Counted from the first letter of the stretch, positions 2,950 through 27,715 are shown. The stretch is 32,610 nt of DNA from Rhodospirillales bacterium (GCA_947469635.1 CANIRG010000016.1:1-32610); one strand, 5' to 3'. A program made the numbers and translations. The notes: a model not told the origin generated them from the sequence alone.

Positions 2950-3004
2950 GGCTGGTCTCCTATATCCATCGGCGGTTGAATTCACGTCAAATGGACAAAG
3001 AAAA

Positions 3005-5767: not shown

Positions 5768-5793
5768 ACCAAAAAAGAGAACAGGGAGAAACC

Positions 5794-6720
5794 ATGATCG
5801 AGCGCACCTTGCGAAGGGCTGTTCTGGCCGGCCTGGCATCGGCCGTCCTCGCCGCCGTCCCGGCCTCGGCCGACGAATTCATCGGCGGCTGGCAGACGAA
5901 GTTCCCGGTCGTGAAGTACGGCGTCATCCCGGTCGAGACGCAGGGCCAGACGACCAAGTCGATGGATACCTTCCTGGCCCATGCCCAGAAGGAAACCGGC
6001 GCGAAGTGGGAACTCTACACCGCGACCGACTATTCCGGCGTGATGAACGCGCTGATCGCGGGCCAGATCCACGTCGCCTGGCTCTCGGGCTTCAGCTACT
6101 GCCAGACCCACGGCGATTCCAAGGGCGGCGTCGAGGCGCTGGTGGCGGCCCAGGAGCCGGACGGCTCGATGGGCTACAATGCCGTGATCGTCGTCAAGGC
6201 CGACAGCCCCTACAAGACCTACGAGGATCTCAAGGGCAAGGTCGTCGCCCGCACCGATCCGCTCTCGGGCTCGGGCTATCTCATCCCGACGGCGGCCTTC
6301 CGCCAGATGGGCAAGCCGGTCGACCAATATTTCCAGAGCCCGCTGGCCGGCGGTCATCCGCAGGCGGTGCTGGGCGTGCTGCGCGGCACCTACGAAGGCG
6401 CCTTCACCTGGACCAGCAAGGACGACAATATCGGCAACCTGCGCCAGATGATGAACAAGAACCTGCTCAAGCGCGAGCAGATCCGCATCGTCTGGACCTC
6501 GCCGCAGCTTCCGTCGCCGCCGGTGGTGATCCGCAAGGACCTGCCGCTTGAGATGCGGGCCGACATCGAGAAGCTCTTCATCCGCCTCAAGGACCACAGC
6601 ATGCCGCTGGCCGAGTCGGTGGCCCAGGGCAAGACCAACGGCATGGTCCGCGTCTATCACGAGGACTATCGCCTGATCTGCCAGGCCGCCGACCTCGAGC
6701 GCGAATCGCGCAAGAAATAG
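5794..6720 (+). CDS. phnD: Phosphonate/phosphite/phosphate ABC transporter periplasmic binding protein PhnD
   Basis: The 308-residue protein begins with a cationic and hydrophobic signal peptide (MIERTLRRAVLAGLASAVL) and a likely cleavage after PASA. The mature part has the PhnD-type fold signatures: YGVIPVET, a substrate loop near WLSGFSY, and YEDLKGKVVARTDPLSGSGYLIP, which corresponds to the family's DLKGK..DP.STSGYL block. It would capture an organophosphonate or related oxyanion in the periplasm and deliver it to the two PhnE permeases. I chose ATG 5794, inside the larger track ORF, because GGGAGAA lies just upstream and the signal peptide begins there. The ligand cannot be inferred from sequence alone. 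Confidence 0.93.
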   Translation: MIERTLRRAVLAGLASAVLAAVPASADEFIGGWQTKFPVVKYGVIPVETQGQTTKSMDTFLAHAQKETGAKWELYTATDYSGVMNALIAGQIHVAWLSGFSYCQTHGDSKGGVEALVAAQEPDGSMGYNAVIVVKADSPYKTYEDLKGKVVARTDPLSGSGYLIPTAAFRQMGKPVDQYFQSPLAGGHPQAVLGVLRGTYEGAFTWTSKDDNIGNLRQMMNKNLLKREQIRIVWTSPQLPSPPVVIRKDLPLEMRADIEKLFIRLKDHSMPLAESVAQGKTNGMVRVYHEDYRLICQAADLERESRKK

Positions 6721-6742
6721 CGCGGGAGCGTTCGGGTCCGAC

Positions 6743-7612
6743 ATGTCGATGAGTGAGGGAGCCGCCCGGTTCGAGCGGCAGTACGCGGAGTATCGCCGCG
6801 GCAAGACGCTGTGGACCGCCGTGTTCTGGGCGGGCTTCGTCGTCTGCTTCGTCGTGTCGATGATCGTGGCGCGCTTCGACGTGGTGGCGTTGGCCGCCGG
6901 CCTGCCGCGCACCACCGAGTTCCTGGTCAAGCTGATCCCGCCGATCGGCTGGTCGACCTTCGCCCACGACATGGGCGAATGGTACTGGGGCCTCGGCAAG
7001 TGGCTCACCAGCCTCCTCAACACGCTGCTGATGGCCTATCTCGCGACCGTGCTGGGCACCATCATCGGCGGCGCGCTTTCGTTCTTTGCGGCGCGCAACC
7101 TGGTGAAGCATTACGCCGTCTACTGGGTCACGCGCCGCGTGCTGGAGATTGCCCGCACCGTGCCGGACATTGTCTGGGCGTTGCTCTTCGTGCTCGCGTT
7201 CGGCATCGGCCCGCTGGCCGGCGTGCTCGCCATCACCATCCATACGCTCGGTGCGCAGGGTAAATTGTTCGCCGAGGTCAACGAGAACGTGAGTCGTCTG
7301 CCGATCGAGGGCATCCGGGCGTCCGGCGGCAACTGGCTGCACGAGATGCGCTACGGCGTGCTGCCGCAAGCCCTGCCGAACTACATGTCCTACACCTTCT
7401 GGCGCATCGAGCTGAACGTACGCTCGGCGACGATCGTGGGCTTCGTCGGTGCCGGCGGCATCGGCCACGACCTGTTCACCTCGATCCAGCTGCTCTATTT
7501 CGCCGATGCCGGCGCCATCCTGCTGATCGTGGTGGGCACCATCATGCTGATCGACATTTTGAGCGAACGCTATCGCCATCTCCTGATCGGCAAGGAGCAG
7601 CTCAGCCAATGA
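6743..7612 (+). CDS. phnE: Phosphonate-type ABC transporter permease (PhnE-like, first copy)
   Basis: The 289-residue polytopic membrane protein has several hydrophobic segments, the first at about 25-45. A PhnE-type coupling region at about 190-235 reads GIRASGGNWLHEMRYGVLPQ and then VGFVGAGGIGHDL, the family's equivalent of the EAA loop that contacts the ATPase. It forms the translocation path together with the next gene, with which it shares an ATGA overlap (7609-7612). A second in-frame ATG at 6749 is an equally possible start. Two different PhnE permeases in a row resemble rhizobial phoCDET rather than the single-permease Escherichia arrangement. Confidence 0.92.
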   Translation: MSMSEGAARFERQYAEYRRGKTLWTAVFWAGFVVCFVVSMIVARFDVVALAAGLPRTTEFLVKLIPPIGWSTFAHDMGEWYWGLGKWLTSLLNTLLMAYLATVLGTIIGGALSFFAARNLVKHYAVYWVTRRVLEIARTVPDIVWALLFVLAFGIGPLAGVLAITIHTLGAQGKLFAEVNENVSRLPIEGIRASGGNWLHEMRYGVLPQALPNYMSYTFWRIELNVRSATIVGFVGAGGIGHDLFTSIQLLYFADAGAILLIVVGTIMLIDILSERYRHLLIGKEQLSQ

Positions 7613-8502
7613 GCCTCACCGCCTCCGAGATCGAAACAGCGCGCGCCCGCCTGCCGCGTGCCTTTGCCGCCGACCCTGCCGAGCAGTGGAAGCGCCGGCT
7701 GGTGTGGGGGGCCGCGACCGCGCTCACCATCTACTGCCTCTATCGCTTCGGCTTCTTCACCTGGATCTTCGCCGACGGTGTGCTGAAGTTCGGTTCGGTC
7801 GTGGTCGCCCAGCTCTTTCCGCCCACGGGCTTCGACCAGTTGCCGATGTTCCTGCGGGTCATGGGCGAGACGCTGGCCATGGCTTTCCTCGGCACCGTGC
7901 TGGGGGCGGTCGTGGCCTTTCCTTTGGCCTTCCTCGCCTCCAAGAACATGATGCCGTTCCGGCCGCTGCAGTTCGGCACGCGCCGTTTCGCCGACCTGCT
8001 GCGCGCCTTCGACTATCTGATCTGGGCGCTGATCTTCGTGCGTGCGATCGGGCTCGGCCCCATGGCCGGCATCATGGCCATCGCCATCGTCGAGGTCGGC
8101 ACCTTCATCAAGCTCTATTCCGAGGCGATCGAGAATCTCGACCGCAAGCAGATGGACGGCATCCGCGCCGCCGGTGGCGGCCGCCTGCACGTCATCCGCT
8201 ATGGCGTGCTGCCGCAGGTCATGCCGATGATGATCTCCAACACCCTCTACATGTTCGAGCACAATGCGCGCTCGGCCTCGATCCTGGGCATCGTCGGCGC
8301 CGGCGGCATCGGCTTCCTGCTGTCGGACCGTCTGCGCGCCTACGAGCTGCAGGAAGCCTGCCTGATCATCCTGATCGTGATCCTGACGGTCTACGCCATC
8401 GACTTCCTGTCCAAGAAGCTGCGCGAGAAGATCATCGGCGACGACCGCCATGCGCCTGTTGCCGACGACGTGCCGCAATTCACCGAACCGAAAGCAAAGT
8501 AG
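7609..8502 (+). CDS. phnE: Phosphonate-type ABC transporter permease (PhnE/PhoT-like, second copy)
   Basis: The 297-residue membrane protein is paralogous to the preceding gene. It has the same coupling-loop pattern, GIRAAGGGRLHVIRYGVLPQ, followed by ILGIVGAGGIGFLL at about 225-240, and several hydrophobic helices. The start ATG overlaps the previous stop by four bases, which implies translational coupling and equal stoichiometry, as expected for a heterodimeric permease. Its N-terminal 35 residues are hydrophilic and probably cytoplasmic. Its TAG (8500-8502) is immediately followed by the ATG of the nucleotidyltransferase gene, tying that enzyme to the importer. Confidence 0.92.
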   Translation: MSLTASEIETARARLPRAFAADPAEQWKRRLVWGAATALTIYCLYRFGFFTWIFADGVLKFGSVVVAQLFPPTGFDQLPMFLRVMGETLAMAFLGTVLGAVVAFPLAFLASKNMMPFRPLQFGTRRFADLLRAFDYLIWALIFVRAIGLGPMAGIMAIAIVEVGTFIKLYSEAIENLDRKQMDGIRAAGGGRLHVIRYGVLPQVMPMMISNTLYMFEHNARSASILGIVGAGGIGFLLSDRLRAYELQEACLIILIVILTVYAIDFLSKKLREKIIGDDRHAPVADDVPQFTEPKAK

Positions 8503-9255
8503 ATGCGCGCCATCATCATTGGAGCGGGCCGTGGCAGCCGGCTGATGCCGACCACCGAGAACTCGCCCAAGTGCTTCGCCGAGATCCAGGGCAAGCGCAT
8601 CCTCGACTGGACCGTGGAGGCGCTGAAGGGCGGCGGCTGCACCGAGATCGTGTTCATCGGCGGCTATCGCATCGACTCGGTGAAGCGCGAGTATCCCGAG
8701 TTCGTGTTCCGCGAGAACAAGGACTGGGAGAACAACAACATCCTGGTGTCGCTGATGTGCGCCGAGGATTTGATGGATCGGCCCTTCGTCACCAGCTACT
8801 CCGACATCCTGTTCACCAGGGAGGTCGTGCGCGGGCTGGTGGACTCGAAGGACGAGCTGTCGCTCGGCATCGATACCGACTGGCGCGAGCACTACAAGCC
8901 GCGGACCCAGCACCCGCCGCACGATGCCGAGAAGGCGATCACCAGGGGCGGCAAGGTCGAGCGCGTCTACCGCACCATCCCCTACGACGACGCCACCGGC
9001 GAGTTCATCGGCGTCGCCAAGTTCGGCGAGAAGGGCGCGCAGCAGTTCCGCGACTTCTATCACCGCCGCAAGGCGGAGTTCTGGGACAAGCCCTATCGCG
9101 AGGCCGCGATCTTCCAGAAGGCGTACCTGATCCACATGTTCCAGGACATGATCGAGCAGGGCACCCCGTTCGGGCATTTCGATACGCCGGGCAAGTATCG
9201 TGAGATCGACACGCAGGAAGACATGAACCTCGCCCAGACGCTGTGGAAGCCGTGA
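8503..9255 (+). CDS. Nucleotidyltransferase, LicC/PntC-like (CTP:phosphocholine or phosphonate cytidylyltransferase type)
   Basis: The 250-residue protein begins with the nucleotide-binding signature MRAIIIGAGRGSRL..PTTENSPKCF, where the G-x-G-x-R loop and the PK lysine contact the NTP. YSDIL at about 99-103 supplies the metal-binding aspartate and IDTQEDM near the C-terminus the second metal site, an arrangement seen in LicC (phosphocholine) and PntC (2-aminoethylphosphonate) cytidylyltransferases and in sugar-phosphate nucleotidyltransferases. Position directly after a phosphonate-type importer (zero spacing) favours a phosphonate or phospho-amino-alcohol acceptor (inference). No fused transaminase domain is present, unlike some PntC proteins. 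Sugar-1-phosphate nucleotidyltransferase is the main alternative. Confidence 0.8.
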   Translation: MRAIIIGAGRGSRLMPTTENSPKCFAEIQGKRILDWTVEALKGGGCTEIVFIGGYRIDSVKREYPEFVFRENKDWENNNILVSLMCAEDLMDRPFVTSYSDILFTREVVRGLVDSKDELSLGIDTDWREHYKPRTQHPPHDAEKAITRGGKVERVYRTIPYDDATGEFIGVAKFGEKGAQQFRDFYHRRKAEFWDKPYREAAIFQKAYLIHMFQDMIEQGTPFGHFDTPGKYREIDTQEDMNLAQTLWKP

Positions 9256-9262
9256 GCCAATA

Positions 9263-10324
9263 ATGAAAACACTGCCGCTGTTTCCGTCGTCGATCGTGGG
9301 TTCGATCCCGCGCCCTCTCGTCGTGCGCGAGCTGATCGAGAAGCCCGTGTGGGACGAGACCGACACCAACACCATGGATGCCGCCATCCGCTTCGTGGTG
9401 GCAATGCAGGAGCGCGCCGGCCTCGACGTGGTGAACGACGGCGAATGGCGCCGCCGTTCCTACATCGGCGTCATCGCCGAGCTGGCGCACGGCTTCACCC
9501 TCGAGATCAATCCCGCCGACGGGCGGCCCTGGACCGTCGTGACCGAGACGCTCACGCCCAAGCCGGCCGGCTTCATCGCGGCCGAGGCGAAGTTCGTGAA
9601 GCAGGTCGCCAAGGTCGCGACCAAGATCACCCTGCCGGCGCCGGCGCTGCTGGGCGAGCGCCTGTGGGATGCCGAGCGCTCCAAGCCGGCCTATCCCGAC
9701 CGCGACGATTTCGTGCGCGCCTGCGTGGCGCCGCTGCGCGCCGAGATCGCGCTGCTGCAGGACATGGGCGTGGAGATCGTGCAGATCGACGATCCGCACC
9801 TCTGCCTGTTCGTCGATCCCGACGTGCGCCGGAAGTACGACAATCCCGACCGTGCCGCCGACTTCGCCGTCGACATGATCAACGAGACGGTGAAGGGCTT
9901 TGGCGGCATCAAGTTCGCCGTCCACCTCTGCCGCCGCGCCGGCGCCCGCGTACGTGGCGAGAAGCACCATGCCGGCACCTACGGTCCGATCCTGCCCCAG
10001 CTCAACAAGCTCCAGGTCCAGCATCTCACGATGGAGTTCACGGCCGCGGGCGCCGACGATCTCGAGAGCCTGGGCCGCCTGCGCGAGGATTTCGAATTGG
10101 GTCTGGGTGTGGTCGACGTGACGCCCGGCGCTCCCGAGGCTGCTACGCTCATCGCCTCCCGCGTCGAGCGGGCACTGACGCGCATCGACAAGAAGCGCAT
10201 CACCCTCAACCCCGATTGCGGCTTCGCGCCGGGCTCGGCCGCCAAGGTCGACACCGACGAGGTCTATCTCAAGCTCAAGGCCGAAGCCGAGGCCGCCCGG
10301 ATGCTGCGCGAGAAGTACGCGTAG
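9263..10324 (+). CDS. MetE C-terminal-like (cobalamin-independent methionine synthase family) zinc methyltransferase
   Basis: The 353-residue protein corresponds to the C-terminal catalytic barrel of MetE without the N-terminal duplicated domain. The zinc site is readable: His221 and Cys223 in AVHLCRR, Glu258 in TMEFT and Cys319 in NPDCGFAPG, matching the His-Cys-Glu-Cys ligands of MetE. The early GSIPRP and NDGEWRR motifs fit the family. Such short 'core' proteins activate a thiol for alkyl transfer; related members handle substrates other than homocysteine, for example epoxyalkane:coenzyme M transferase. It lies 7 bp after the nucleotidyltransferase gene and closes the importer operon. Its role beside a phosphonate-type transporter is unknown; a methyl or alkyl transfer involving the imported compound is speculation. 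Confidence 0.85.
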   Translation: MKTLPLFPSSIVGSIPRPLVVRELIEKPVWDETDTNTMDAAIRFVVAMQERAGLDVVNDGEWRRRSYIGVIAELAHGFTLEINPADGRPWTVVTETLTPKPAGFIAAEAKFVKQVAKVATKITLPAPALLGERLWDAERSKPAYPDRDDFVRACVAPLRAEIALLQDMGVEIVQIDDPHLCLFVDPDVRRKYDNPDRAADFAVDMINETVKGFGGIKFAVHLCRRAGARVRGEKHHAGTYGPILPQLNKLQVQHLTMEFTAAGADDLESLGRLREDFELGLGVVDVTPGAPEAATLIASRVERALTRIDKKRITLNPDCGFAPGSAAKVDTDEVYLKLKAEAEAARMLREKYA

Positions 10325-16341: not shown

Positions 16342-17841
16342 CTAGGGTATGGGCCGTCGTGCGACGGCGACGAGACGCGCGATCAGCGGCCACAGCAGGA
16401 GCAGGAGACCGAGCGACATCAGGGTGGTGACCAGCGGATTGGCCCAGAAGATGGCGGGGGAGCCCTTGGACATGATGAGCGACTGGCGGAATGCATCCTC
16501 CGCCTTGTCGCCGATTACCATGGCCAGGACCATCGGTGCGATCGGATAGTCGAGCTTCTTGAAAATGTAACCGACGACGCCGAAGGCCAGCGCCAGCCAC
16601 AGATCGAACTCGCGGCTGGCGACCGTGTAGGCGCCGACGAAGCACACCACGACGATGATCGGCCCGATCACGGCGAAGGGCGTGCGCAGGATGGCGGCGA
16701 ACATCGGTACCGTCGTCAGCACCAGCACCACGGCCACGACATTGGCGAGATACATGCTGGCGATCAGGCCCCAGACGAAGTCCGGCCGTTCGATGAACAG
16801 CATTGGCCCGGGATTGAGCCCCCAGATCATCAGCCCGCCCAGCATGACCGCCGAGGTCGCCGATCCCGGCACGCCCAGCGCCAGCATCGGCAGCATGGCG
16901 CTGGTGCCGGCGGCGTGGTCGGCCGTCTCGGGTGAGATCACGCCTTCGGGCTCGCCCTGGCCGAAGCGTGCGCCCTTGCGCGAGAAGCGCTTGGCGAGGC
17001 CGTAGCTCATGAACGACGCGGCCGTGGGTCCGCCCGGCGTGATGCCCATCCAGCAGCCGATGGCGCCACTGCGCAGCAGCGCCAGCCAGTGGCGCGGCAT
17101 GTCGGCTGCGGTGCGCAGCACGTCGCGCAGGGAGAGGCGGGCCCTGATGCCGTCGATCTTGAGCCCCTCCTCGATCGTGACCACCAGCTCGCCCAGCCCG
17201 AACAGCCCGATGACGGCGACCAGGAAGCTGATGCCGGGGACGAGGCTGTCGAAGCCGTAGCTCAGCCGCAGGCTGCCCGAGATCGAGTCCATGCCGACGG
17301 CGGCCAGGGAAAAGCCGAGCCCGATCGAGACGATGGTCTTCAGCGGCGACGCGCCGCCCAGCCCGATGAAGCTGGCGAAGGCCAGGAAGTAGACAGCGAA
17401 ATATTCAGGGGAGCTGAACTTGAGCGCGAAGCGCGCGACCCAGCCCGACAGCAGGGTGATCAGCACCACGCCCAGCAGCGCGCCGAAGCCCGCCGACAGG
17501 AAAGCATAGCTCAGCGCCTCGGTCGCCCGTCCCTGCTTGGCCATGGGATAGCCGTCGAAGGTGGTGGCGACGGACGACGGCTCGCCCGGGATGTTGAACA
17601 GGATCGAGGTCGTCGAGCCGCCGAACAGCGCCCCCCAGTAGGTGCTGGTGAGCAGGATGATCGCCGCCACCGGGTCCATGGTGAAGGTGAGTGGCAGCAG
17701 CAGCGACACGCCGTTGGGAGCGCCCAGCCCTGGCAGGACGCCGACCAGCAGGCCCAGCATCACGCCGATCACCATCAGCATGACGTGATAGGCCGTGAGC
17801 GCCACGCCGAAGCCGTGCAGCAGGGAGGCAATGCCGTCCAT
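16342..17841 (-). CDS. tctA: Tripartite tricarboxylate transporter large permease TctA
   Basis: The 499-residue protein has about a dozen hydrophobic segments. It carries TctA signatures: GVLPGLGAPNGVSLLLPLTF near residues 34-53, FNIPGEPSSVATTFDGYPMA at about 82-101 and GITPGGPTAASFMSYGLAKR at about 267-286, followed by the PETADHAAGTSAMLPMLALGVPGS block. It couples uptake of a carboxylate to the ion gradient, using TctC as the binding protein. It lies 2 bp after tctB. Confidence 0.95.
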   Translation of the reverse strand: MDGIASLLHGFGVALTAYHVMLMVIGVMLGLLVGVLPGLGAPNGVSLLLPLTFTMDPVAAIILLTSTYWGALFGGSTTSILFNIPGEPSSVATTFDGYPMAKQGRATEALSYAFLSAGFGALLGVVLITLLSGWVARFALKFSSPEYFAVYFLAFASFIGLGGASPLKTIVSIGLGFSLAAVGMDSISGSLRLSYGFDSLVPGISFLVAVIGLFGLGELVVTIEEGLKIDGIRARLSLRDVLRTAADMPRHWLALLRSGAIGCWMGITPGGPTAASFMSYGLAKRFSRKGARFGQGEPEGVISPETADHAAGTSAMLPMLALGVPGSATSAVMLGGLMIWGLNPGPMLFIERPDFVWGLIASMYLANVVAVVLVLTTVPMFAAILRTPFAVIGPIIVVVCFVGAYTVASREFDLWLALAFGVVGYIFKKLDYPIAPMVLAMVIGDKAEDAFRQSLIMSKGSPAIFWANPLVTTLMSLGLLLLLWPLIARLVAVARRPIP

Positions 17842-17843
17842 CG

Positions 17844-18320
17844 CTATAGCCCGAGCATTCCCTCGAGCGGGCCCTTCAGCAGCGACACCTGAAAGGCTTT
17901 TTCGAGGAGGAGATAGAGGCCGATCGGCACGGCGACGGCGATCGGGAGAGCCACGCGCAGCCGGTACTTGGCCTGGAACACCATGGTCGCCAGCAGGTAG
18001 AGCGCCGTGGCGACATAGAGACCGAGCACGAGGCTTGCGATGACGAAGGCCACGATCGGCAGCGAGAAGGCGAGCACCGGGCGAAGCTGGGCCGCCGTCA
18101 GGAACGGTGTCGTGAACTTGCCGCGGGCAACGACGGTCTGCGCCACGATGCCGGCACTGGCCAGCGCCACGATGAGGCCGGTATAGAACGGGAACGTTCC
18201 CGGCTCGGGCCCTGACTTGCCCCAGCCGATGCCGTATTCGGTGGCGCCGATCATCGTGACGATGCCGAGCGCCGCCGTGGTGCCGGCCGTCGCCAGCTCG
18301 GCGGCATAGCGCGTGATCAT
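17844..18320 (-). CDS. tctB: Tripartite tricarboxylate transporter small membrane subunit TctB
   Basis: The 158-residue protein has four hydrophobic segments (about 10-30, 45-65, 85-110 and 115-145), the length and topology of TctB. The GPEPGTFPFYTGLIVALAS stretch after helix one is the family's most conserved piece. It forms the small membrane subunit beside TctA. It begins 4 bp after the tctC stop and ends 2 bp before tctA, so the three genes form a tight block. Primary sequence in this family is weakly conserved, so the call rests partly on position. Confidence 0.9.
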   Translation of the reverse strand: MITRYAAELATAGTTAALGIVTMIGATEYGIGWGKSGPEPGTFPFYTGLIVALASAGIVAQTVVARGKFTTPFLTAAQLRPVLAFSLPIVAFVIASLVLGLYVATALYLLATMVFQAKYRLRVALPIAVAVPIGLYLLLEKAFQVSLLKGPLEGMLGL

Positions 18321-18324
18321 GGCG

Positions 18325-19320
18325 TCACTTCACGAGCCAGCCTTCCTTCTCGAACACCTTGCGGTTGTTGGCATCGTCCTCGGCAACGAAGGCCTTGAGC
18401 TCAGCGCCCGTCATGAAGCGCGGCGTCTGCACGGTGCGGGTGACGTACTCCCGCCACTCCGGCGTCTCGCTCACCTTCTTCATGAGCTCGACATAGAAGG
18501 CGACCGCATCGGCCGGCACCTTGGCCGGCAGCCAGACCGTGCGCGGCATCTGGAAGCGATCGATGGCGATGCCTTCTTCCTTGCAGGTCGGGATATCGCC
18601 CCAGCCCATGTCGGCCGTCACTTTCGGCCCTGCCGGCAGGCGCGTGGTGCTGAAGACGCAGAGCGGCCGCACCTGGCCCGCCTTCCACTGACCGATGTTC
18701 TCGTTGGGATTGTTGGTGTTGGAATCGGTATGGCCACCCGCGAGCTGCACCGCCGCCGCGCCGCCGCCCTGGAACGGGACATAGATCCATTTCACGCCGG
18801 CCACGCTCTCGATCAGGCTGGTCAACGTCTGGTCGGTGTCCTTGGATTGGCTGCCGCCCATCTTGTAGGTCTCGGGCTTGGCCTTGACCGCGGCGATGTA
18901 CGACTTGGTGTCCTTGAACTCCGACTGGGACGTGACCCAGAGCAGGAACTCGTCGAGCGCCATGGCCGCGACCGGCGTGAGGTCGTCGGGCTTGAACGGC
19001 GTCTTCACGACGTGGGGCAGGAGATAGGCGTTGTTGGTGCCAAAGATCACCTTCTGCGGATCGCCCGAGGAGGAGCGCGCGTAGATGTAGCCCTCGGCGC
19101 CGCTGCCGCCGCCTTTGTTGGTGACGATGATCGGCTGCGGCGAGAGCTTGTACTTGCCCACGATCGACTGCACGACGCGGGCGAAATTGTCGGTGCCGCC
19201 GCCCGGCCCCGAGGTCACCACGAACTCGATGGGCTTGGTCGGCTGCCAGGCGTGCGCGGCCGCGAGGCTTGCCATGGACAAGGCAGCAGAGACCGCGATT
19301 GTCCGTCCGATGCGCAACAT
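18325..19320 (-). CDS. tctC: Tripartite tricarboxylate transporter substrate-binding protein (Bug/TctC family)
   Basis: The 331-residue periplasmic protein begins with a signal peptide (MLRIGRTIAVSAALSMASLAAAHA) and shows Bug-family signatures: PIEFVVTSGPGGGTDNFARVV, NKGGGSGAEGYIYA and the YVPFQGGGAAAVQLAGGHTD loop at about 173-192. It binds a carboxylate, through main-chain contacts in this family, and hands it to TctAB. The Shine-Dalgarno AAGGAAACGC precedes ATG 19320. Only 37 bp separate it from the end of fkbM on the same strand, so either the promoter lies inside fkbM or transcription continues from the opgH unit. Confidence 0.93.
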   Translation of the reverse strand: MLRIGRTIAVSAALSMASLAAAHAWQPTKPIEFVVTSGPGGGTDNFARVVQSIVGKYKLSPQPIIVTNKGGGSGAEGYIYARSSSGDPQKVIFGTNNAYLLPHVVKTPFKPDDLTPVAAMALDEFLLWVTSQSEFKDTKSYIAAVKAKPETYKMGGSQSKDTDQTLTSLIESVAGVKWIYVPFQGGGAAAVQLAGGHTDSNTNNPNENIGQWKAGQVRPLCVFSTTRLPAGPKVTADMGWGDIPTCKEEGIAIDRFQMPRTVWLPAKVPADAVAFYVELMKKVSETPEWREYVTRTVQTPRFMTGAELKAFVAEDDANNRKVFEKEGWLVK

Positions 19321-19357: not shown

Positions 19358-20101
19358 TTACGGCCGCCGCGCATAGATGTCTCCCGAGTTCGCGGCATGC
19401 GGCAGGGCCGTGAGCCAGGCCGCCATCGTGCCGGCGTCTCGCCACTCGCCCAAGGCCTGGCTCTCGCCCAGGGCCGAATTGAAGCGCGTGTAGCCAAGGG
19501 CGGTGCAGCGCTCCACGCAAGCCAAGCCGATATCGCGCTGGATGGTCGTGAACTCGAAGGAGAGCGCGGGGACCGGATGGGAGAGGCCGGCCAATGCTTC
19601 GGCCTCGAAGCCCTCGATATCGAGCTTGATGAACGCGGGCAGGCCGTGGGCGTCGATCAGCGCATCGAGCGTGGTGACCGGGACCTCGATCGACCGCTGC
19701 CAGGACTCGCCCTCCCAGCCGGCCGCCGTGCGGCTGGCGGCGATGAAGTCCTTGGACAAGGTCGAGATCGTCGGATTGTCGATGTTGACCATCATCTGGC
19801 CGGCGCCGACTGTCCTTCCAATTGCGGTAGCGATCAAGGTGACCGAGGTGTAGCGGCCGAAGAGCAGGCTGAGCGTTCGGTACAGCGCCGGCTGCGGCTC
19901 GACGGCAACGACGCGGGCGCCCAGGCGCCTGAAGGCGGCAATCCGATCGCCGACATGGGCGCCGATATCGAAGGCGAGATCACCAGGCGCGATGAACTGC
20001 GCATAGAGCGCATCCATTGCACACGCGCGCGCGCGGTGGCCGTAGTAGATGCGCAACGACCGCAGGACACCGAGCGCGGTTCGGAGGCTTTGCGGCATCA
20101 T
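19358..20101 (-). CDS. FkbM-family methyltransferase
   Basis: The 247-residue protein is a SAM-dependent methyltransferase of the FkbM type: the SAM-binding motif LAFDIGAHVGDRIAAF at about 42-57, an acidic VVAVEPQP at the end of strand two, and the family mark FIKLDIEGFEAEAL at about 160-173. FkbM enzymes usually O-methylate sugars or polyketides. The ATG at 20101 overlaps the stop of the upstream glucosyltransferase gene (ATGATG with TGA inside). The coupling suggests that the product of that enzyme, a periplasmic glucan, is methylated or that both serve one glycan (inference). The track's 669-residue ORF is an out-of-frame extension through the upstream gene. Confidence 0.9.
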   Translation of the reverse strand: MMPQSLRTALGVLRSLRIYYGHRARACAMDALYAQFIAPGDLAFDIGAHVGDRIAAFRRLGARVVAVEPQPALYRTLSLLFGRYTSVTLIATAIGRTVGAGQMMVNIDNPTISTLSKDFIAASRTAAGWEGESWQRSIEVPVTTLDALIDAHGLPAFIKLDIEGFEAEALAGLSHPVPALSFEFTTIQRDIGLACVERCTALGYTRFNSALGESQALGEWRDAGTMAAWLTALPHAANSGDIYARRP

Positions 20102-21813
20102 CGAGCGATGGCTTTCAAGGCCAGCCGCTCCAGGGCTGCCGGTGGGGTGGTCTCCTCCGGCAGGCGACCGATGCCGATGCGGGCGAAGGCGCGCCCCAGC
20201 CGCGGCCACGAGGTGACGACGCAGAAGGGGATCGAGAGCACGAGGCCGCCCGTCAGCAGCACGAACAGATAGGGCAGCGCCGCCGGCTGCAGGGCAGCGA
20301 CGATCGCGAGGCTTGCGCCGCCAAGCACCGTCTGCGGCCAGAGCTGGCGCAGCGCGACCAACCAGGCGACGCTGTGATCGTCGCGCGTCTGCCCGATCCA
20401 GCCGATGGCGCGGCCGAACGGCAGGCCGGCGAAGAACAGCGTGTGGCAGGTCCACATGATCGGCGACAGCAGGAGCGAGAAGATCGTCTCGACCGCGACG
20501 CTCGCCAGGAAACGCAGGCTGCCGCCGAAGGCGTGACGCAGCGTCGGCTGCATCAGCACGTCGATCGTCGTCGCCACCTTGGCGGCGAACCACATCAGAA
20601 GGATGAGTGTCAGGAGTGCCATGCCGTAGCCGGGATCGACGACCGCTTTCGTGTCGGGCGCCGAGGCCAGTGTCATTGTCCCGACGAGCAGCAGGCCGAT
20701 CCAGGCGGGCGAGCCCAGGAACATCAGCATGGCAAAGACGAGCTGGAAGCGGCTGACGGGCTTCAGGCCGGGCCGCGCGATGAAGAACACATACTGCAGC
20801 GTTCCCTGCAGCCAGCGCTGATCGCGTCGGATGAACTCGACGAGGGTTGGTGGATTCTCCTCCCAGCCCAGGTCCTCCTCGGGCAGGACGCGGACGTCGT
20901 AGCCGGCGCGCCGCATCAGGGCGGCCTCGATCTGGTCGTGACTCAGGACCGGGCCACGCAGGATGCCGCGGCCGGGCAGCGGCGGAATCTCGCAATGCTG
21001 CTTGAAGGGCGCGATGCGGATCACGGCGTTGTGGCCCCAGTAGGGGCCGCAGTCGGCCTGCCACCAGGCGCTGCCGATGGTCCAGGAGCGCATGCCGAGG
21101 CGCATGCCGAACTGGAAGAGCCGGGCAAAGGCGCTGGTCGACGGCATGCCGATGACGAGGCCCTGCAGGATGCCGAGCTTCGGATCGTTCTGGACGATGG
21201 AGACCATGCGTCTCAGCGCCGCTGCCGTCATGAAGCTGTCCGCATCGAGCGTCACCATGAGCTCGTGACCGTCGCCCCAGCGCTCGAGGAAGTCGCGGAT
21301 ATTGCCCGCCTTGAAGCCGGCGTTGATCTCGCGCCGCCGGTAGGTGACAGGGAGGCGACCTGCCCATTCCTGCGCGAGTGCGCCGAACGCCTTCTCCTCC
21401 GCGTCGGCAATGTCGGGCCGGCTGGTGTCGCTCAGCACATAGACATGAAATCGGTCGGCGATGCCGCTTGCCGCGATGTCATCCATCATGACGCCGAGAT
21501 TGCGGATCACCCGATCCGGCGGCTCGTTGCGTACGCACATCACGAGTGCCGTCGAGGCGAGGATCGCGGGCGGCGATTCCTGCCGGACCGGATCACGGGC
21601 GAGGCGCATGATGAGGAAGCCGATGGCGGCATTCCAGAAGCCGACGACCATCCAGGGCGTCGTCAGCGCAAACAGCACCAGCAGCAGGAGATCGACCCCG
21701 TCGAAGCCTCCGGGTGACAGGGTGAGGGCGGCGAGCACGAGCAACGCCGCCGTCGACATCGTCACCAGAGCGAGGAACACGAGGCGGCGGGCGAGGACGC
21801 GACGCTCGGTCAT
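20098..21813 (-). CDS. opgH: Glucan biosynthesis glucosyltransferase, OpgH/MdoH-like
   Basis: The 571-residue membrane GT2 enzyme polymerises glucose from UDP-glucose. Visible parts: two N-terminal helices (about 15-65), the GT2 domain with TLDADSFM (metal-binding DxD), QADCGPYWGHNAVIR, then EEDLGWEENPP and the processive-synthase motif QRWLQGTLQY, followed by several C-terminal helices. This matches OpgH, though it lacks the long N-terminal extension of enterobacterial OpgH (about 850 residues). ATG 21813 has GGAG upstream; the track start at 21909 would overlap the divergent dehydrogenase. No opgG or opgC is in the window. It is coupled to the FkbM methyltransferase gene. Confidence 0.9.
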   Translation of the reverse strand: MTERRVLARRLVFLALVTMSTAALLVLAALTLSPGGFDGVDLLLLVLFALTTPWMVVGFWNAAIGFLIMRLARDPVRQESPPAILASTALVMCVRNEPPDRVIRNLGVMMDDIAASGIADRFHVYVLSDTSRPDIADAEEKAFGALAQEWAGRLPVTYRRREINAGFKAGNIRDFLERWGDGHELMVTLDADSFMTAAALRRMVSIVQNDPKLGILQGLVIGMPSTSAFARLFQFGMRLGMRSWTIGSAWWQADCGPYWGHNAVIRIAPFKQHCEIPPLPGRGILRGPVLSHDQIEAALMRRAGYDVRVLPEEDLGWEENPPTLVEFIRRDQRWLQGTLQYVFFIARPGLKPVSRFQLVFAMLMFLGSPAWIGLLLVGTMTLASAPDTKAVVDPGYGMALLTLILLMWFAAKVATTIDVLMQPTLRHAFGGSLRFLASVAVETIFSLLLSPIMWTCHTLFFAGLPFGRAIGWIGQTRDDHSVAWLVALRQLWPQTVLGGASLAIVAALQPAALPYLFVLLTGGLVLSIPFCVVTSWPRLGRAFARIGIGRLPEETTPPAALERLALKAIAR

Positions 21814-21851
21814 GGACTGCGCTCCGATGAAGACACGTGATAGCTTGCGGA

Positions 21852-22820
21852 ATGAGTCGGGCGCTGTGGTACGTCGGAGCAGGTCGCGCGGAAATCCGCG
21901 ACGAGCCATTGGGGCCTTTGATGCCCAGCGCGGTGAGAGTGCGTGCGCTCCACGGCGCGATCAGCCGGGGGACGGAAGCGCTGATCACCCATGGGCGGGT
22001 GCCTCCGTCGGAGTACCAGCGCATGAGAGCGCCCTTCATGGCGGGCGAGTTCCCGTTCCCGGTCAAATACGGCTATGCGACCGTCGGCGTTGTCGAGAGC
22101 GGCTCCGGGGATCTTCTCGGGCGAACCGTCTTCACGCTCCATCCGCATCAGACTGTCTTTGATGTGCCGGCCAACGCAGCAGTGCCCGTGCCGACCGACG
22201 TCCCGGCATCGCGCGCGGTGCTGGCCGCCAACATGGAAACCGCACTGAACGCCGTCTGGGATGCCGGAGCCGGTCCCTTCGGGAGTGTCGCCGTTGTGGG
22301 AGCAGGTGTGGTCGGCGCGCTCACGGGGCTGCTCTGTCAGGAGTTGGCCTCGGCCGATGTGACCCTGGTCGATGTCGATCCGTCGCGCACCAGCGTCGCA
22401 TCGCGGTTCGGCCTCGAGTTCGCGATGCCTGAAATGGCGCCGACCGACTGCGCGCTCGTCATTCATGCCAGCGCAAGCGCAGCGGGCCTTGCGACGGCGC
22501 TGAGGCTGGCCGGCGACGAGGCGACCGTGCTGGAGCTGAGCTGGTACGGCAGCGCCGACGTGCCGGTACCGTTGGGCGGCGCCTTCCACAGCCGCCGCCT
22601 CAAGCTGATCGCCAGCCAGGTCGGCAAGGTCGCGCCGTCGCATCGGCAGGAGTGGACGCATCGTCGCCGCCTCGAGAAGGCGCTGAGCCTGCTTGCCGAC
22701 GAGCGGCTCGACGTGCTGTTCGATACGCCTGTTGCCTTTGAAGACCTGCCCGCCGAGCTTCCGCGCATCCTCGCGCCCGGAAGCGGCGTGCTGTGCCAAC
22801 GTATCGACTATTCCCGCTAG
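21852..22820 (+). CDS. MDR-superfamily dehydrogenase, BchC-like, without zinc ligands
   Basis: The 322-residue protein has the medium-chain dehydrogenase layout: an N-terminal GroES-like domain, then a Rossmann fold with VAVVGAGVVGALTG at about 150-163 and an acidic LVDVD at the end of strand two. The classical catalytic-zinc Cys is Ser38 (AISRGTEAL), and the GHE motif is GYA at about 74-76, so zinc is probably absent. The SRGTEAL and PVKYGYATVG blocks resemble BchC-type bacteriochlorophyllide dehydrogenases (from memory), but no photosynthesis genes surround it. I chose ATG 21852 over the track's GTG 21837. It is 9 bp upstream of the PTPS-like gene and divergent from opgH by 38 bp. Confidence 0.82.
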   Translation: MSRALWYVGAGRAEIRDEPLGPLMPSAVRVRALHGAISRGTEALITHGRVPPSEYQRMRAPFMAGEFPFPVKYGYATVGVVESGSGDLLGRTVFTLHPHQTVFDVPANAAVPVPTDVPASRAVLAANMETALNAVWDAGAGPFGSVAVVGAGVVGALTGLLCQELASADVTLVDVDPSRTSVASRFGLEFAMPEMAPTDCALVIHASASAAGLATALRLAGDEATVLELSWYGSADVPVPLGGAFHSRRLKLIASQVGKVAPSHRQEWTHRRRLEKALSLLADERLDVLFDTPVAFEDLPAELPRILAPGSGVLCQRIDYSR

Positions 22821-22829
22821 GAGAGTGCC

Positions 22830-23231
22830 GTGTACGCAGTCGAAGTCCGCGACCACATCATGATCGCCCATTCCTTCAAGGGCGCGGTGTTCGGTCCTGC
22901 CCAGGCGCTGCACGGCGCGACCTTCGTGGTCGATGCCGCCGTCCTCGCCGACACGCTCGACGAGAACGGCATCGTGATCGACATCGGCCTCGCCCACGAG
23001 GTGCTGAAGTCGGTGCTGGGTCCCTTGACCTACAAGAACCTCGATACCATCCCCGAGTTCGCCGGCCGCAACACGACGACCGAGTTCCTGACGCGGCATA
23101 TTCATGACCGGCTGGCCGAGGCGGCGCGATCGAACAAGCTCGGCCGCGACGGCAAGGAGCTGAAGGCGATCCGGGTCACCATCTCCGAATCGCATGTCGC
23201 CCGCGCCTGGTACGAGGCGCCGCTTTGGTGA
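22830..23231 (+). CDS. Divergent 6-pyruvoyl-tetrahydropterin synthase/QueD-like protein
   Basis: The 133-residue protein has PTPS length and layout: an early MIAHSF histidine (His14), a second histidine in ALHGATF (His28), the ENGIVIDIGLAHEVLKSVL helix, LTYKNLDTIPEF, NTTTEFLTRHIHDRL and the pterin-anchoring glutamate in TISES (Glu120). Key residues differ from the canonical set: the CxxxHGH motif reads AQALHGA, so the catalytic Cys is Ala24 and the third zinc histidine is Ala30, and the LDH catalytic histidine is Tyr68. It may do different chemistry or only bind a pterin-like ligand. GTG start 22830 follows TAGGAGAG. It lies between the dehydrogenase (9 bp) and the glycosyltransferase (GTGA overlap). 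Confidence 0.85.
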   Translation: MYAVEVRDHIMIAHSFKGAVFGPAQALHGATFVVDAAVLADTLDENGIVIDIGLAHEVLKSVLGPLTYKNLDTIPEFAGRNTTTEFLTRHIHDRLAEAARSNKLGRDGKELKAIRVTISESHVARAWYEAPLW

Positions 23232-24277
23232 GGTACGTCGCCTTTGCGGTGCCGGGCGATATCGCGACATTGACCGGGGGCTATGGCTACGACCGCCGCA
23301 TCATCGCCGAGTTGCGTCGCCTCGGCTGGGAGGTCGAGCTGGTGGGCCTGGGCGACGGCTTTCCGAGGCCGAGCGACGCGCAGAAGGCACTCGCGCAGGA
23401 GCGGCTGCTGGCGACACCCGTTGGCTGTCCGGTCGTGATCGACGGGCTGGCGTTCGGCGTGCTGCCGCAAGCCGCCGCGGCGATACAGTCGAATCGGCCG
23501 GTGGTTGCGCTGGTGCATCATCCCCTGGCGTCCGAGACCAATCTCACCCAGCAAGAGATGGAACGGCTTCGCGACAGCGAACGCGCCGCTCTCGCCGCAA
23601 CGCGACTGGTCATCGCCACCAGCCAGGCGACGGCTGATCTTCTGATCGGCCACTACGACGTACCGTCTCGGCAGATCGAGGTCGTGCTGCCGGGCACCGA
23701 TCGCGCCCCTTTCTCCGTCGGCGGTGGCGGCCATCCGTTGCGGCTGCTCTCCGTCGGTGCCGTCGGCGCCCGAAAGGGTTTCGACGTCCTGGTCGAAGCG
23801 CTGGCGCGACTCGCCCCTCTGCCGTGGCGCCTCACGATCGCAGGAGATCGAGGGCGCGATGCGGAGGCGGTGGCGCGGCTCGATGCGGCCATCGCCGGTC
23901 ACGGGCTGGAGGATCGGATCGACTGTGCGGGCGCGGTATCGCCGGAACGTCTTGCCGATCTCTATGCGCGCGCAGACCTGTTCGTGCTGGCCTCGCGCTT
24001 CGAGGGCTACGGCATGGCCTATGCCGAGGCGATCGCCCATGGGCTGCCGGTTGTCGGCACGACCGGCGGTGCGATCCCGCAGACGGTGCCTCTTTCCGCC
24101 GGGCGGCTCGTGCCGCCGGGAGATGTCGACGCGCTGGCAGAGGTGCTGCGCGAGCTCATCGAGGACGACGCAAGCCGTCGCGCATTGGCCGCCGGTGCTC
24201 GCGCTCATGCCTCTACCTTGCCCACCTGGGCCTGCTCAGGCGCGCGCTTCGGCCAGGCGCTGGAGCGGCTGCTCTGA
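23228..24277 (+). CDS. Glycosyltransferase family 4
   Basis: The 349-residue protein is a GT-B retaining glycosyltransferase. The N-terminal domain starts with a glycine-rich GGYGYDRRII; the C-terminal nucleotide-sugar domain has LLSVGAVGARKGFDVLVEAL at about 175-194 and the E-x7-E motif FEGYGMAYAEA at about 259-269, followed by GLPVVGTTGGAIPQ. The start is GTG 23228, whose last two bases begin the PTPS-like gene's TGA; the track's TTG at 23225 is less likely. This coupling suggests that it glycosylates the product of the preceding genes rather than a bulk polysaccharide (inference). Its 3' end overlaps the convergent reductase gene by 42 bp. Confidence 0.9.
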   Translation: MRYVAFAVPGDIATLTGGYGYDRRIIAELRRLGWEVELVGLGDGFPRPSDAQKALAQERLLATPVGCPVVIDGLAFGVLPQAAAAIQSNRPVVALVHHPLASETNLTQQEMERLRDSERAALAATRLVIATSQATADLLIGHYDVPSRQIEVVLPGTDRAPFSVGGGGHPLRLLSVGAVGARKGFDVLVEALARLAPLPWRLTIAGDRGRDAEAVARLDAAIAGHGLEDRIDCAGAVSPERLADLYARADLFVLASRFEGYGMAYAEAIAHGLPVVGTTGGAIPQTVPLSAGRLVPPGDVDALAEVLRELIEDDASRRALAAGARAHASTLPTWACSGARFGQALERLL

Positions 24278-25000
24278 CAGGTCGCAGTCGAACAGCACCT
24301 CGTCGCCCAGCCGATGGACATGCATCGGCACACGCATCGCTTCGTCCATGCGGGCAATCGTCGGCAGGGCGAGGCTCGCGATGCCGGACCCCAGGATGAT
24401 CGGCGCCACCACGACATGCAGCCGATCGAGGCAGCCGGCGGTAAGGAAGCGTGACAGCGTCTGCGCCCCGCCCTCGATCAGCACGCGACGCAGGCCGCGC
24501 GCGGCCAAGGCGTCGAGGATCGCATCGGGTGCGAAGATGCCCGCGGTGTCGGGCAGGGCGATCGTCTCGACGCCATCCACTCGTTGGCGGCACGCGCTTT
24601 CACGCGAGATCACGATGCGGTGAACGCCATCGGCGGCGAAGGCGCGGGCCGTCGATGGAAGGCTGCCACGCGGATCGATCACAACGCGGACCGGATTGGG
24701 ACCGACGACCTCACGCACCGTGAGCTGCGGGTCATCGGCGCGCACCGTGCCCGCGCCGACGACCACGGCGTCGACGAGCGCGCGCAGGCGATGAAGGTGA
24801 GCCAAGCCCTCCGCACCGTTGATGTACTTGGAATGGCCCGACAGCGTTGCGATGCGCCCGTCGAGCGATTGGCCGATCTGTCCCACGATTATGCGCTTGG
24901 CCGCAGTCTGTCTTAGCGGACCGAACAGGCCTTCCCACGGCTCCGGCAGACTCTCCCCGGCTCGAAGTCGATGGGGGACTTCCTCCCAGGTCCGGGTCAT
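24236..25000 (-). CDS. RibD C-terminal-domain (pyrimidine/dihydrofolate-type) reductase, stand-alone
   Basis: The 254-residue protein corresponds to the reductase domain of RibD without the deaminase domain. Diagnostic pieces: IVGQIGQSLDGRIAT (about 42-56), VVVGAGTVRADDPQLTVR (about 86-103), VVIDPRGSLP, the GLRRVLIEGGAQTLSRF nucleotide-binding block near 190 and a C-terminal PIILGSG. Such domains reduce an aminopyrimidine ribosyl phosphate or a pterin with NADPH. ATG 25000 has AGGA upstream. The track ORF of 1200 residues is a GC-rich shadow extension. It converges on the GT4 gene with a 42-bp overlap, an antisense arrangement that could couple the two transcripts. It probably belongs to the same pathway as the PTPS-like and dehydrogenase genes (inference). 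Confidence 0.87.
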   Translation of the reverse strand: MTRTWEEVPHRLRAGESLPEPWEGLFGPLRQTAAKRIIVGQIGQSLDGRIATLSGHSKYINGAEGLAHLHRLRALVDAVVVGAGTVRADDPQLTVREVVGPNPVRVVIDPRGSLPSTARAFAADGVHRIVISRESACRQRVDGVETIALPDTAGIFAPDAILDALAARGLRRVLIEGGAQTLSRFLTAGCLDRLHVVVAPIILGSGIASLALPTIARMDEAMRVPMHVHRLGDEVLFDCDLSEQPLQRLAEARA

Positions 25001-25081: not shown

Positions 25082-26443
25082 ATGATCACAACAGCAATCT
25101 CCGGCATCGAGAGACTTGGCGGCTTCAAGTGGATGGTGTTCGCCCTCTGTGCGCTGCTGCTCGTGCAGGGGCAGTTGAGAACGGCTCTCGGAGCTGTCGA
25201 ACGTTTCGGCTATTTTGCAGACTTCGTGCGTTCCGAATGGCTCGGCACGAATTTCTGGCTCGAAACCGCGGAGTGCGCCCGATCGCGGGGCGCGTGGCTG
25301 TCGATGTGCGAGGGCGACAAGCTCGTGCCGTTCTCGGAGCGGTCGATCGGCGACGATCCGGGGCACGCCCTGTTCCTCTCGATATGGTCGCGTCTCGGCG
25401 ACCGTGTGATATCGTTGACCGACATTGCCCGTCTGAACATCGGGCTGAACACGTTCGGTCTCGTGATGCTGGCGAGCCTTCTGTTCGCCCTTCGCGCCTA
25501 TCTGACATCGATCGTCCTGCTCGCGCTCGGGCCCGGCGAATATCTGGGGTGGATGGGACTGTCGCCTCACTGGGGCTTCATCGGCGTCGCGAGCATGGCG
25601 GCCATCCTTCCGATGGCGCTTGTCGCCCGGGAGGAAGGGCTGCTGCCGCGCTGGAGTGGGCTCGGCTTCATCGTAGTCGGCATCGTCTTCCTCGCGATCG
25701 CGGCGCTGGTGCGTGAAGCGATCGGAATCATGGCGTTCCTGGTGAGCCTCGGCGCCGCTGGTACGGTGGTGTGGCGCAGGCTGCAGACGAGGCGGAGCCT
25801 GCTGGGACCGATCGTCGTCGCCGCCTCGATCTTCGTCGCGGCAGCGGCGCCGCAATGGGTGGTCGTAGCGCGCGATGCCTCGTTCGCGATGGAGCCCGCG
25901 GTGCATCGTCCGACGCATGGACTCTCCCACACGCTGTTCATCGGACTTGGCTTCGTGCCGAACAAATTCGGCATTCGCTACGAAGATGCTTTCGCAGGGG
26001 AGGCGGTCCGCAAGATCGCACCCGACGTGCTCTATTGCTCGCCGGAGTACTTCCGGATCCTGTGGACGCTCTACATCGACCGTCTGCTTGCCGATCCGGG
26101 CGAAGTGATCCGCGTCTATTTCGAGAAAGCTGAGATGCTTTTCGACACCCGGACGATCCAGCCGGGACCGACTTTCGGCCTCGCGCTGGTGATCGCGGCA
26201 GCCCATCTTTTCTTCGCGACCCTGCTGGGCCTGTGGGGTCGGATCAGGTTCAGGCAGGGGTTGATCGTCGAGGTCGTCGCTCTGGCCTTTACGGGTTTCT
26301 TCGTCGTCCAGTCGATCCTCGCCGTTCCACTCCAGCTCTACGTCCTGCCCGTGAACGCCTTCCTGCTGGTGCTCTTCGGGGTGCTCGTTGAATTCGTCTG
26401 TCGCTCGATCTGGCGCGTGCTGCCGTGGCACGCTTCTTGGTAG
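25082..26443 (+). CDS. Polytopic membrane protein of unknown function (possible GT-C type)
   Basis: I do not recognise this 453-residue protein. It has roughly nine to eleven hydrophobic segments (for example about 17-35, 120-145, 160-180, 195-230, 240-265, 360-385, 395-445) and two longer soluble stretches at about 40-115 and 275-355. The first soluble loop carries aromatic and acidic residues (FGYFADFVRSEWLGTNFW, WLSMCEGDKLVPF). Size, topology and a large loop after helix one resemble GT-C lipid-linked sugar transferases, but I see no certain motif. It is divergent from the RibD-type reductase (81 bp) and lies beside a glycosyltransferase cluster, which weakly supports an envelope role. The Shine-Dalgarno is poor. 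Confidence 0.7.
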   Translation: MITTAISGIERLGGFKWMVFALCALLLVQGQLRTALGAVERFGYFADFVRSEWLGTNFWLETAECARSRGAWLSMCEGDKLVPFSERSIGDDPGHALFLSIWSRLGDRVISLTDIARLNIGLNTFGLVMLASLLFALRAYLTSIVLLALGPGEYLGWMGLSPHWGFIGVASMAAILPMALVAREEGLLPRWSGLGFIVVGIVFLAIAALVREAIGIMAFLVSLGAAGTVVWRRLQTRRSLLGPIVVAASIFVAAAAPQWVVVARDASFAMEPAVHRPTHGLSHTLFIGLGFVPNKFGIRYEDAFAGEAVRKIAPDVLYCSPEYFRILWTLYIDRLLADPGEVIRVYFEKAEMLFDTRTIQPGPTFGLALVIAAAHLFFATLLGLWGRIRFRQGLIVEVVALAFTGFFVVQSILAVPLQLYVLPVNAFLLVLFGVLVEFVCRSIWRVLPWHASW

Positions 26444-26473
26444 GCTGCGATGGCAATCGAAAAGGAGTCCCGC

Positions 26474-27715
26474 ATGGTCGCAAATGTCCTGGAGATCAAT
26501 CCCGAGCGGCTGTGGGACAGCCTGGAGCGGTCGGCGGAGATCGGGCGCTTTCGCGACGTCGGCCTGCGCCGCCTGGCGCTGTCGGGCGAGGACAAGGAGA
26601 TGCGCGACCTGTTCGTCGTCTGGGCGAAGGAGGCGGGCTGCAGCATCGAGATCGACCGGCTGGGCAACATCTTCGCGCGGCGCGCCGGCAGCGATCCCTC
26701 GCTGCCGCCGGTCGCCATCGGCAGCCATCTCGACACCCAGATCTGCGGCGGGCGCTACGACGGCATCCTGGGCGTGCTGTGCGGCCTCGAGGTCGTGCGC
26801 ACGCTGAACGATCGCGGGCTTGCGACCAAGCGCGGCATCGAGGTCATCTGCTGGACCAACGAGGAGGGCGCGCGCTTCAGCCCGCCGATGATGGGTTCCA
26901 TGGCCTTCGCCAAGGTGCTGCCGCTCGACACGGTGCTCGCCACCACCGACGATGCGGGCATCACCGTGGAGCAGGCGCTCGATGCCATCGGCTATGCCGG
27001 TGCCGCGCCACTTGGCGCGCGGGCCTTCGACTCCTATCTTGAGCTGCACATCGAGCAGGCGCCGGTGCTCGACCGCGAGGGGTGCGACATCGGCATCGTG
27101 GTCGGCGGCTACAAGACCCAGGCGCTGCGGCTCACCATCAGCGGCGACACCGGCCACGCCGGCGGCACGCCGATGGCGATGCGGCGCAACGCGCTGGTCG
27201 GCGCGGGCTACGTCATCGCCGCGGTCAATGACATCGGTCTCGCCTATGCGTCCGACGAGGGCCGCACCACGACGACACGGATCGAGAGCTTCCCCAATCT
27301 TCCCGGGACTTATGCCGAGCAGGTGAAGCTCACCATCGATTTCCGTCACATCGATGCGGCGCGCTTCAAGGCGATGCGCACGGACGTGGATGCGGCGATC
27401 GCTGAGGCGGCGAAGAAGGCGAATGTCGACATCGAAGTTGCCGAGGGCTGGAGCTGGGGCACTGAATTGTTCGCTCCCGAATGCATCGAGCTGCTGAAGA
27501 CCACCGCCAGGGAGCTGGGCCTTCCCTACCGCGAGATGCGCAGCCAGGCGGGCCACGATGCCTATGCCGTGGCGACGATGGCGCCGACGGCGATGATCTT
27601 CACTCCCTGCTTCGAGGGCATCAGCCACAACGTCAATGAGGCGATCGAGCTCGCCCGCTCCGTGCCCGGCGCCAACCTGTTGCTCAACGCCGCCGTAGCG
27701 CGGGCGAACCGATAG
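26474..27715 (+). CDS. Zn-dependent M20 hydrolase, allantoate amidohydrolase / N-carbamoyl-L-amino acid hydrolase family
   Basis: The 413-residue enzyme has the M20 metal-site motifs in order: GSHLDTQICGGRYDGILG (about 83-100; His and bridging Asp), CWTNEEGARFSPPMMGS (about 133-149; Glu pair), LHIEQAPVLDREG (about 189-201; His) and a late QAGHDAYAVATM. The pattern is that of carbamoylases, ureidoglycolate/allantoate hydrolases and beta-ureidopropionases, which release ammonia and CO2 from N-carbamoyl groups. I place the start at ATG 26474 because AAAAGGAGTCC precedes it; the track's 26450 has no ribosome-binding site. No hydantoinase or allantoinase is adjacent, so the substrate is open. Confidence 0.92.
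   Translation: MVANVLEINPERLWDSLERSAEIGRFRDVGLRRLALSGEDKEMRDLFVVWAKEAGCSIEIDRLGNIFARRAGSDPSLPPVAIGSHLDTQICGGRYDGILGVLCGLEVVRTLNDRGLATKRGIEVICWTNEEGARFSPPMMGSMAFAKVLPLDTVLATTDDAGITVEQALDAIGYAGAAPLGARAFDSYLELHIEQAPVLDREGCDIGIVVGGYKTQALRLTISGDTGHAGGTPMAMRRNALVGAGYVIAAVNDIGLAYASDEGRTTTTRIESFPNLPGTYAEQVKLTIDFRHIDAARFKAMRTDVDAAIAEAAKKANVDIEVAEGWSWGTELFAPECIELLKTTARELGLPYREMRSQAGHDAYAVATMAPTAMIFTPCFEGISHNVNEAIELARSVPGANLLLNAAVARANR

Follow-up and report, generated by a model that had tools for sequence, protein, structure and literature searches.

Gene organisation of the locus

The window, by which we mean the whole analysed stretch of 32,610 nucleotides from a Rhodospirillales bacterium (GCA_947469635.1, CANIRG010000016.1), carries a compact group of genes. 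These are listed below with the letters used for the proteins and their families.

19358..20101, minus strand: F, FkbM methyltransferase (PF05050, 4.7e-15)
20098..21909, minus strand: H, MdoH-like membrane glucosyltransferase (NCBIfam MdoH models), divergent from D
21852..22820, plus strand: D, zinc-less MDR dehydrogenase, 322 aa (AlphaFold model, replaced zinc-ligand motifs)
22830..23231, plus strand: P, PTPS-like protein of the SCO6650 type, 133 aa, GTG start (PF01242, 5.6e-22)
23225 (TTG) or 23228 (GTG) to 24277, plus strand: G, GT4 glycosyltransferase (PF13692/PF00534)
24236..25000, minus strand: R, stand-alone RibD_C reductase (PF01872, 1e-40)

D and P are separated by exactly 9 bp, and P and G share either 4 bp (GTGA) or 7 bp at the P stop codon, depending on which start codon G uses. 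G, which also matches Glycos_transf_1 at 3e-29, converges on R with a 42 bp overlap at the 3′ ends. F and H overlap by 4 bp; as the longest H reading frame runs into the start of D, the H start codon is probably the ATG at 21813. The coordinates and Pfam matches bear out the original prediction of four gene classes with 9-bp and overlapping junctions and a convergent RibD_C gene. The unit in the window exceeds these four genes, taking in the divergent H and its coupled F. The prediction had also noted the absence of queuosine, folate and riboflavin partner genes, and no queC, queE, queF, folE, ribA, ribB or ribH was seen among the window reading frames scanned; queC, queE and queF were also not recognised among the recurrent neighbours of the cluster elsewhere. 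A defence-system reading of the locus was rejected, as PADLOC returned no match.

The remainder of the window includes a TctABC tripartite tricarboxylate transporter (16342-19320) adjoining the FkbM gene and, at 25082-27715, a 453-aa reading frame, apparently for a membrane protein and with no Pfam match, and then an M20 amidase of the hydantoinase/carbamoylase family. In a single run at 5194-10321, genes for the binding protein and two permeases of a phosphonate-type ABC transporter are followed by those for a MobA-like NTP transferase and for a Meth_synt_2 protein resembling MetE. An HSP90-family protein with a HATPase domain is encoded at 2843-4897, adjoining a 634-aa reading frame (307-2211) with no Pfam match.

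A conserved unit with variable parts

A scan with P identified the 80 best-matching loci, from alpha- and betaproteobacteria, in nearly all of which D, P and G lie side by side. Because this set represents the best-matching end, alphaproteobacterial genomes were additionally drawn evenly: a strong match to P (E < 1e-43) was present in 29 of 239 genomes besides that of the window, and the cluster is carried by about one genome in eight of this even sample. At these 29 loci P is accompanied by D in 28 cases and by R in 22, while G and a class I methyltransferase (M) are each found at 27; none of the four occurs at any of eight QueD-type control loci (Fisher 2e-7 for D and 2e-4 for R). The co-occurrence across the Alphaproteobacteria on which the original prediction had staked its case was thus found. 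D and G were present at all 12 new loci from a second, phylum-wide draw, R at 11 of them and M at 10. Across all 129 loci, totals that are approximate since a few genomes were reached twice (e.g. L013 and L212) and contig ends truncate some loci, G was present in 124, D in 123, M in 113, R in 90, H in 80, a GTP cyclohydrolase II (C) in 53, F in 35 and a creatininase (K) in 19. C is the linked cyclohydrolase that had been proposed as worth seeking near the four genes.

Median gaps between longest reading frames are operon-like (D-P +10, P-G -4 and G-M -4 bp); in locus L202, D lies on the other strand. The cluster occurs well beyond the Alphaproteobacteria within which it had originally been framed, in other proteobacterial classes, in Actinomycetota and on plasmids. 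Although all four families are individually common, a chance neighbourhood of unrelated metabolic genes is so improbable that it can be set aside, gene order being kept across the proteobacterial classes and Actinomycetota in the neighbourhood survey, which refutes it. The linkage of the families is not due to chance and they form a conserved unit. In this respect the original four-gene proposal stands, whilst its size does not, as M, C, K and a membrane module also belong.

The core order is D-P-G-M, with R and often C and K. In most alphaproteobacteria M comes after G; its place in betaproteobacteria is beyond an ABC exporter and H. C adjoins R, and K is found in some clusters. Pfam confirmed as neighbours C, K, a CDP-alcohol phosphotransferase (T), a flippase-like protein (L; LPG-synthase-TM in the annotated plasmid clusters) and a cytochrome b561 (B). 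The same core resides on annotated plasmids of Streptomyces, Microbacterium, Rhizobium, Agrobacterium, Methylosinus and Thiodictyon, with the arrangements T-D-P-G-M-L-K-C (locus L129) and T-D-P-G-M-L-R-K-C (L141) in Streptomyces. Rhizobiaceae clusters contain a gene annotated as a sulfatase, with no Pfam match. Two other Streptomyces plasmids carry solitary SCO6650-type PTPS-like genes (L132:10001-10399 and L135:10001-10426) without D, G, M or R, their neighbours being MBL-fold, cupin, sigma-70 and BTAD-regulator genes.

H and T were together in none of the 129 loci, where approximately 11 such cases would be expected if they were independent. This suggests that they are interchangeable membrane modules, and shared ancestry could lie behind part of the exclusion. 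R is absent near P in 39 of the 129 loci; given this, and the presence of C in only 53 and K in only 19, the cluster does not always encode the GTP-derived part of the system. Glycosylation may likewise be optional, since the GT4 gene does not lie between P and M in the Rhodobacterales loci L130 and L139.

Within the genus of the window organism, 23 genomes were searched for P, H and R alike. The same seven hold P together with orthologues of H (67-77% identity) and R (68-73%), and the other 16 hold none of them (p 4e-6). The cluster genes are therefore gained and lost as a unit. Each of the seven encodes a separate RibD besides the R orthologue. M is absent from between G and R in the window, and genome-wide from six P-bearing genus members including that of the window; three P-bearing members keep it. 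No dedicated C was found near the window cluster or in the window genome, and RibA-like copies are present across the genus, whether or not a genome carries the cluster. Judged as an SCO6650-type cluster (D, P, G and M in that order, R or C close by), the window shows D-P-G and R and lacks M. Because M is gone and no dedicated C lies nearby, the window holds a reduced copy: a shortened version of a mobile biosynthetic cluster.

Active sites of the encoded proteins

Full-length homology links P to SCO6650 (3d7j; E 5.9e-43), its best PDB match, and no other PDB entry matches well. Throughout its family P carries HGA in place of HGH, no Cys and no Asp-His, and LTYKNLD where QueD has LDHHYLN. An alignment of 26 members of the family shows that the pterin-anchoring glutamate (Glu120) is invariant and that two zinc-binding histidines out of three are kept; alanine nearly always replaces the third, and both the catalytic Cys and the Asp-His pair are absent. 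A family-specific signature common to P and the SCO6650 type, FGPAQ..HGATF, is almost invariant. As the catalytic residues are gone yet this motif persists, the active site is altered rather than decayed.

P was rejected as QueD (PTPS-I) on score (37.8 bits against the TIGR03367 cut-off of 89.25) and for want of the CxxxHGH motif (PMC5041015), the three zinc histidines and the Asp-His pair, and as PTPS-II (biopterin synthase) on score (28.0 bits against 125.5 for TIGR00039) and for want of CxxxxxHGH. Judged by sequence, P belongs to an SCO6650-type subfamily devoid of the zinc/Cys/Asp-His catalytic set and not to QueD/PTPS, and the PTPS/QueD-like label of the original prediction is abandoned on these cut-offs and motifs. 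Motif and model score equally contradict the public annotation of P as a 6-carboxytetrahydropterin or 6-pyruvoyl tetrahydropterin synthase. SCO6650 itself is reportedly without zinc and without PTPS activity, and is said not to turn over dihydroneopterin triphosphate. In Streptomyces it is adjoined by SCO6655, a GTP cyclohydrolase II. A 2016 review described the function of the PTPS-V subgroup of COG0720 as still unclear (PMC5041015); SCO6650-type proteins could be this subgroup.

D matched no curated family above cut-off in the Pfam and NCBIfam models. Its AlphaFold model predicts an MDR fold (pLDDT 95), the zinc-ligand positions are replaced (SRGTE and KYGY), and a fold search of the PDB with this model retrieved nothing more specific than polyol, alcohol and quinone oxidoreductases of generic kinds. 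D had been described as a zinc-less, BchC-like MDR protein. The first part of that description holds; the second fails, as D scores 20.2 bits against the TIGR01202 cut-off of 291 and the reaction centre family PF00124 is absent from the window genome; a bacteriochlorophyll role was likewise rejected for the window. As a separate observation, among 240 alphaproteobacterial genomes P was more frequent in those with a reaction centre (6/15) than in those without (24/225; Fisher 0.005, uncorrected for kinship and genome size). H scores 526 bits against the MdoH model PRK05454.2-1 (cut-off 419). The window genome encodes a second MdoH homologue (39% identity; G000:C22:15450-17165) with counterparts in genus members that lack the cluster.

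R was rejected as a bifunctional RibD: it consists of RibD_C only, the N-terminal deaminase domain being missing, and scores 113 bits against the TIGR00326 cut-off of 156.35. It is a second copy, a separate RibD being encoded elsewhere in the window genome (contig C538). Residues matching R183, D199, R206 and E290 of B. subtilis RibG are kept in every R family row, Lys151 is replaced by Arg in most members, and the closest relatives are archaeal and bacterial ribosylamino-pyrimidine reductases. The cluster-linked cyclohydrolase is by Pfam type II (RibA-like) and not FolE, and some genomes carry it as an extra copy (e.g. G004). Its zinc cysteines are kept in 52 of 53 sequences. Tyr105 (E. coli RibA) is kept in the proteobacterial sequences with one outlier row, and is Met in two Streptomyces clusters that also carry K; residue numbering for R and C follows B. 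subtilis and E. coli reference sequences. The combination of Met105 and K matches SCO6655, which is reported to stop at the formylamino pyrimidine. At 14 proteobacterial loci K lies beside a Tyr-type C, and K therefore need not be a deformylase in proteobacteria. As an obligatory deformylase it would fit only the two Streptomyces clusters, and this role was rejected.

A candidate pathway from GTP

GTP cyclohydrolase II converts GTP to 2,5-diamino-6-ribosylamino-4(3H)-pyrimidinone 5′-phosphate, and RibD_C-type reductases convert ribosyl to ribityl groups. The type II cyclohydrolase thus feeds ribosylamino-pyrimidine chemistry. We give roughly an even chance to a dedicated pathway in which GTP is converted to a reduced pyrimidine or pterin, which after methylation and glycosylation would be passed to the envelope. 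C would open GTP to the pyrimidine phosphate (in the window genome this part would fall to the RibA-like enzyme that is found genus-wide and encoded outside the window) and R would reduce its ribosyl group. With no deaminase step after R, the 2-amino group would stay; as the cluster has no deaminase, this would give a pterin rather than a lumazine pattern. P, with its pterin-binding T-fold, and D, a polyol-type dehydrogenase, might convert the ribityl pyrimidine or a pterin made from it. M would methylate and G would add a sugar, and the membrane module (an MdoH-like GT2, or a CDP-alcohol phosphotransferase with a flippase-like protein) would anchor or export the product. We infer the substrates, product, step order, pterin nature and envelope destination, as we do all that follows the cyclohydrolase and reductase steps.

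C, K and R, being riboflavin-branch enzyme types with their substrate residues kept, would also suit a ribityl compound resembling a flavin or lumazine (a cofactor or antimetabolite of the riboflavin branch), with P binding a pyrimidine or lumazine; the kinship of R to ribosylamino-pyrimidine reductases points the same way. We consider this unlikely: neither a ring-closing RibB/RibH-like gene nor a deaminase was recognised among the recurrent neighbours, and P has a pterin-binding fold in which the anchoring glutamate is invariant. The recurrence around the core of GT4, the MdoH-like GT2, CDP-alcohol phosphotransferase, the flippase-like protein, an ABC exporter and FkbM might instead indicate modification of an envelope polysaccharide or glycolipid, with P and R acting on other substrates or in regulation. 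Against a GTP-derived pathway, the GT4 enzyme could indeed have a lipid or glycan as its substrate, with no heterocycle involved. Yet a dedicated R with intact substrate residues and an extra C (in G004) serve no plain glycan synthesis, and H and T swap whilst D, P, G and M stay constant, which leaves this explanation quite improbable.

Very improbable is a conventional pterin glycoside pathway, starting from dihydroneopterin triphosphate (with FolE elsewhere) and using P as a true PTPS, D as side-chain reductase, R as dihydropterin reductase and G as glycosyltransferase. The gene classes fit the scheme for tetrahydrobiopterin glycosides in Chlorobium and cyanobacteria (PMC5683033), but P lacks one zinc histidine, the catalytic Cys and the Asp-His pair and falls far below the QueD/PTPS cut-offs, and the linked cyclohydrolase is type II. 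The pteridine glycoside systems of those organisms (cyanopterin, CtPGT) resemble the cluster in pairing a PTPS-family enzyme with a glycosyltransferase for a glycosylated pterin; the cluster differs in its type II cyclohydrolase, its P without PTPS catalytic residues, and the addition of RibD_C and MDR. The NRPS-pteridine cluster for pepteridine in Photorhabdus likewise makes a bacterial pteridine natural product and encodes a PTPS homologue; it relies on an NRPS and on GTP cyclohydrolase I, and no glycosyltransferase is mentioned in the text consulted (PMC5384830). Streptomyces SCO6650-type clusters contain T, L, M, K and C, whereas the window copy has no M, C or K nearby and H replaces T and L. 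No published description of the cluster or pathway was found in the open-licence literature, a scope outside which the key literature lies.

A known orphan protein of the SCO6650 type is thus here part of a wide, variable biosynthetic cluster that probably builds a sugar-bearing molecule from GTP. One speculative product, to which we assign a low probability, is an N8-ribityl pterin that retains its 2-amino group, there being no deaminase after RibD_C, that is methylated, glycosylated and membrane-anchored via the MdoH-like or CDP-alcohol phosphotransferase module, and that possibly partners cytochrome b561 in a redox or light-absorbing role; if so, it would represent a previously unknown class of molecule. 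The annotation of P as 6-carboxytetrahydropterin synthase would be corrected in many genomes. The orphan SCO6650-type family, with a solved structure and no function, would gain a pathway to work in, and its fixed partners (MDR, GT4, methyltransferase, RibD_C, GTP cyclohydrolase II and membrane module) make that function directly testable.
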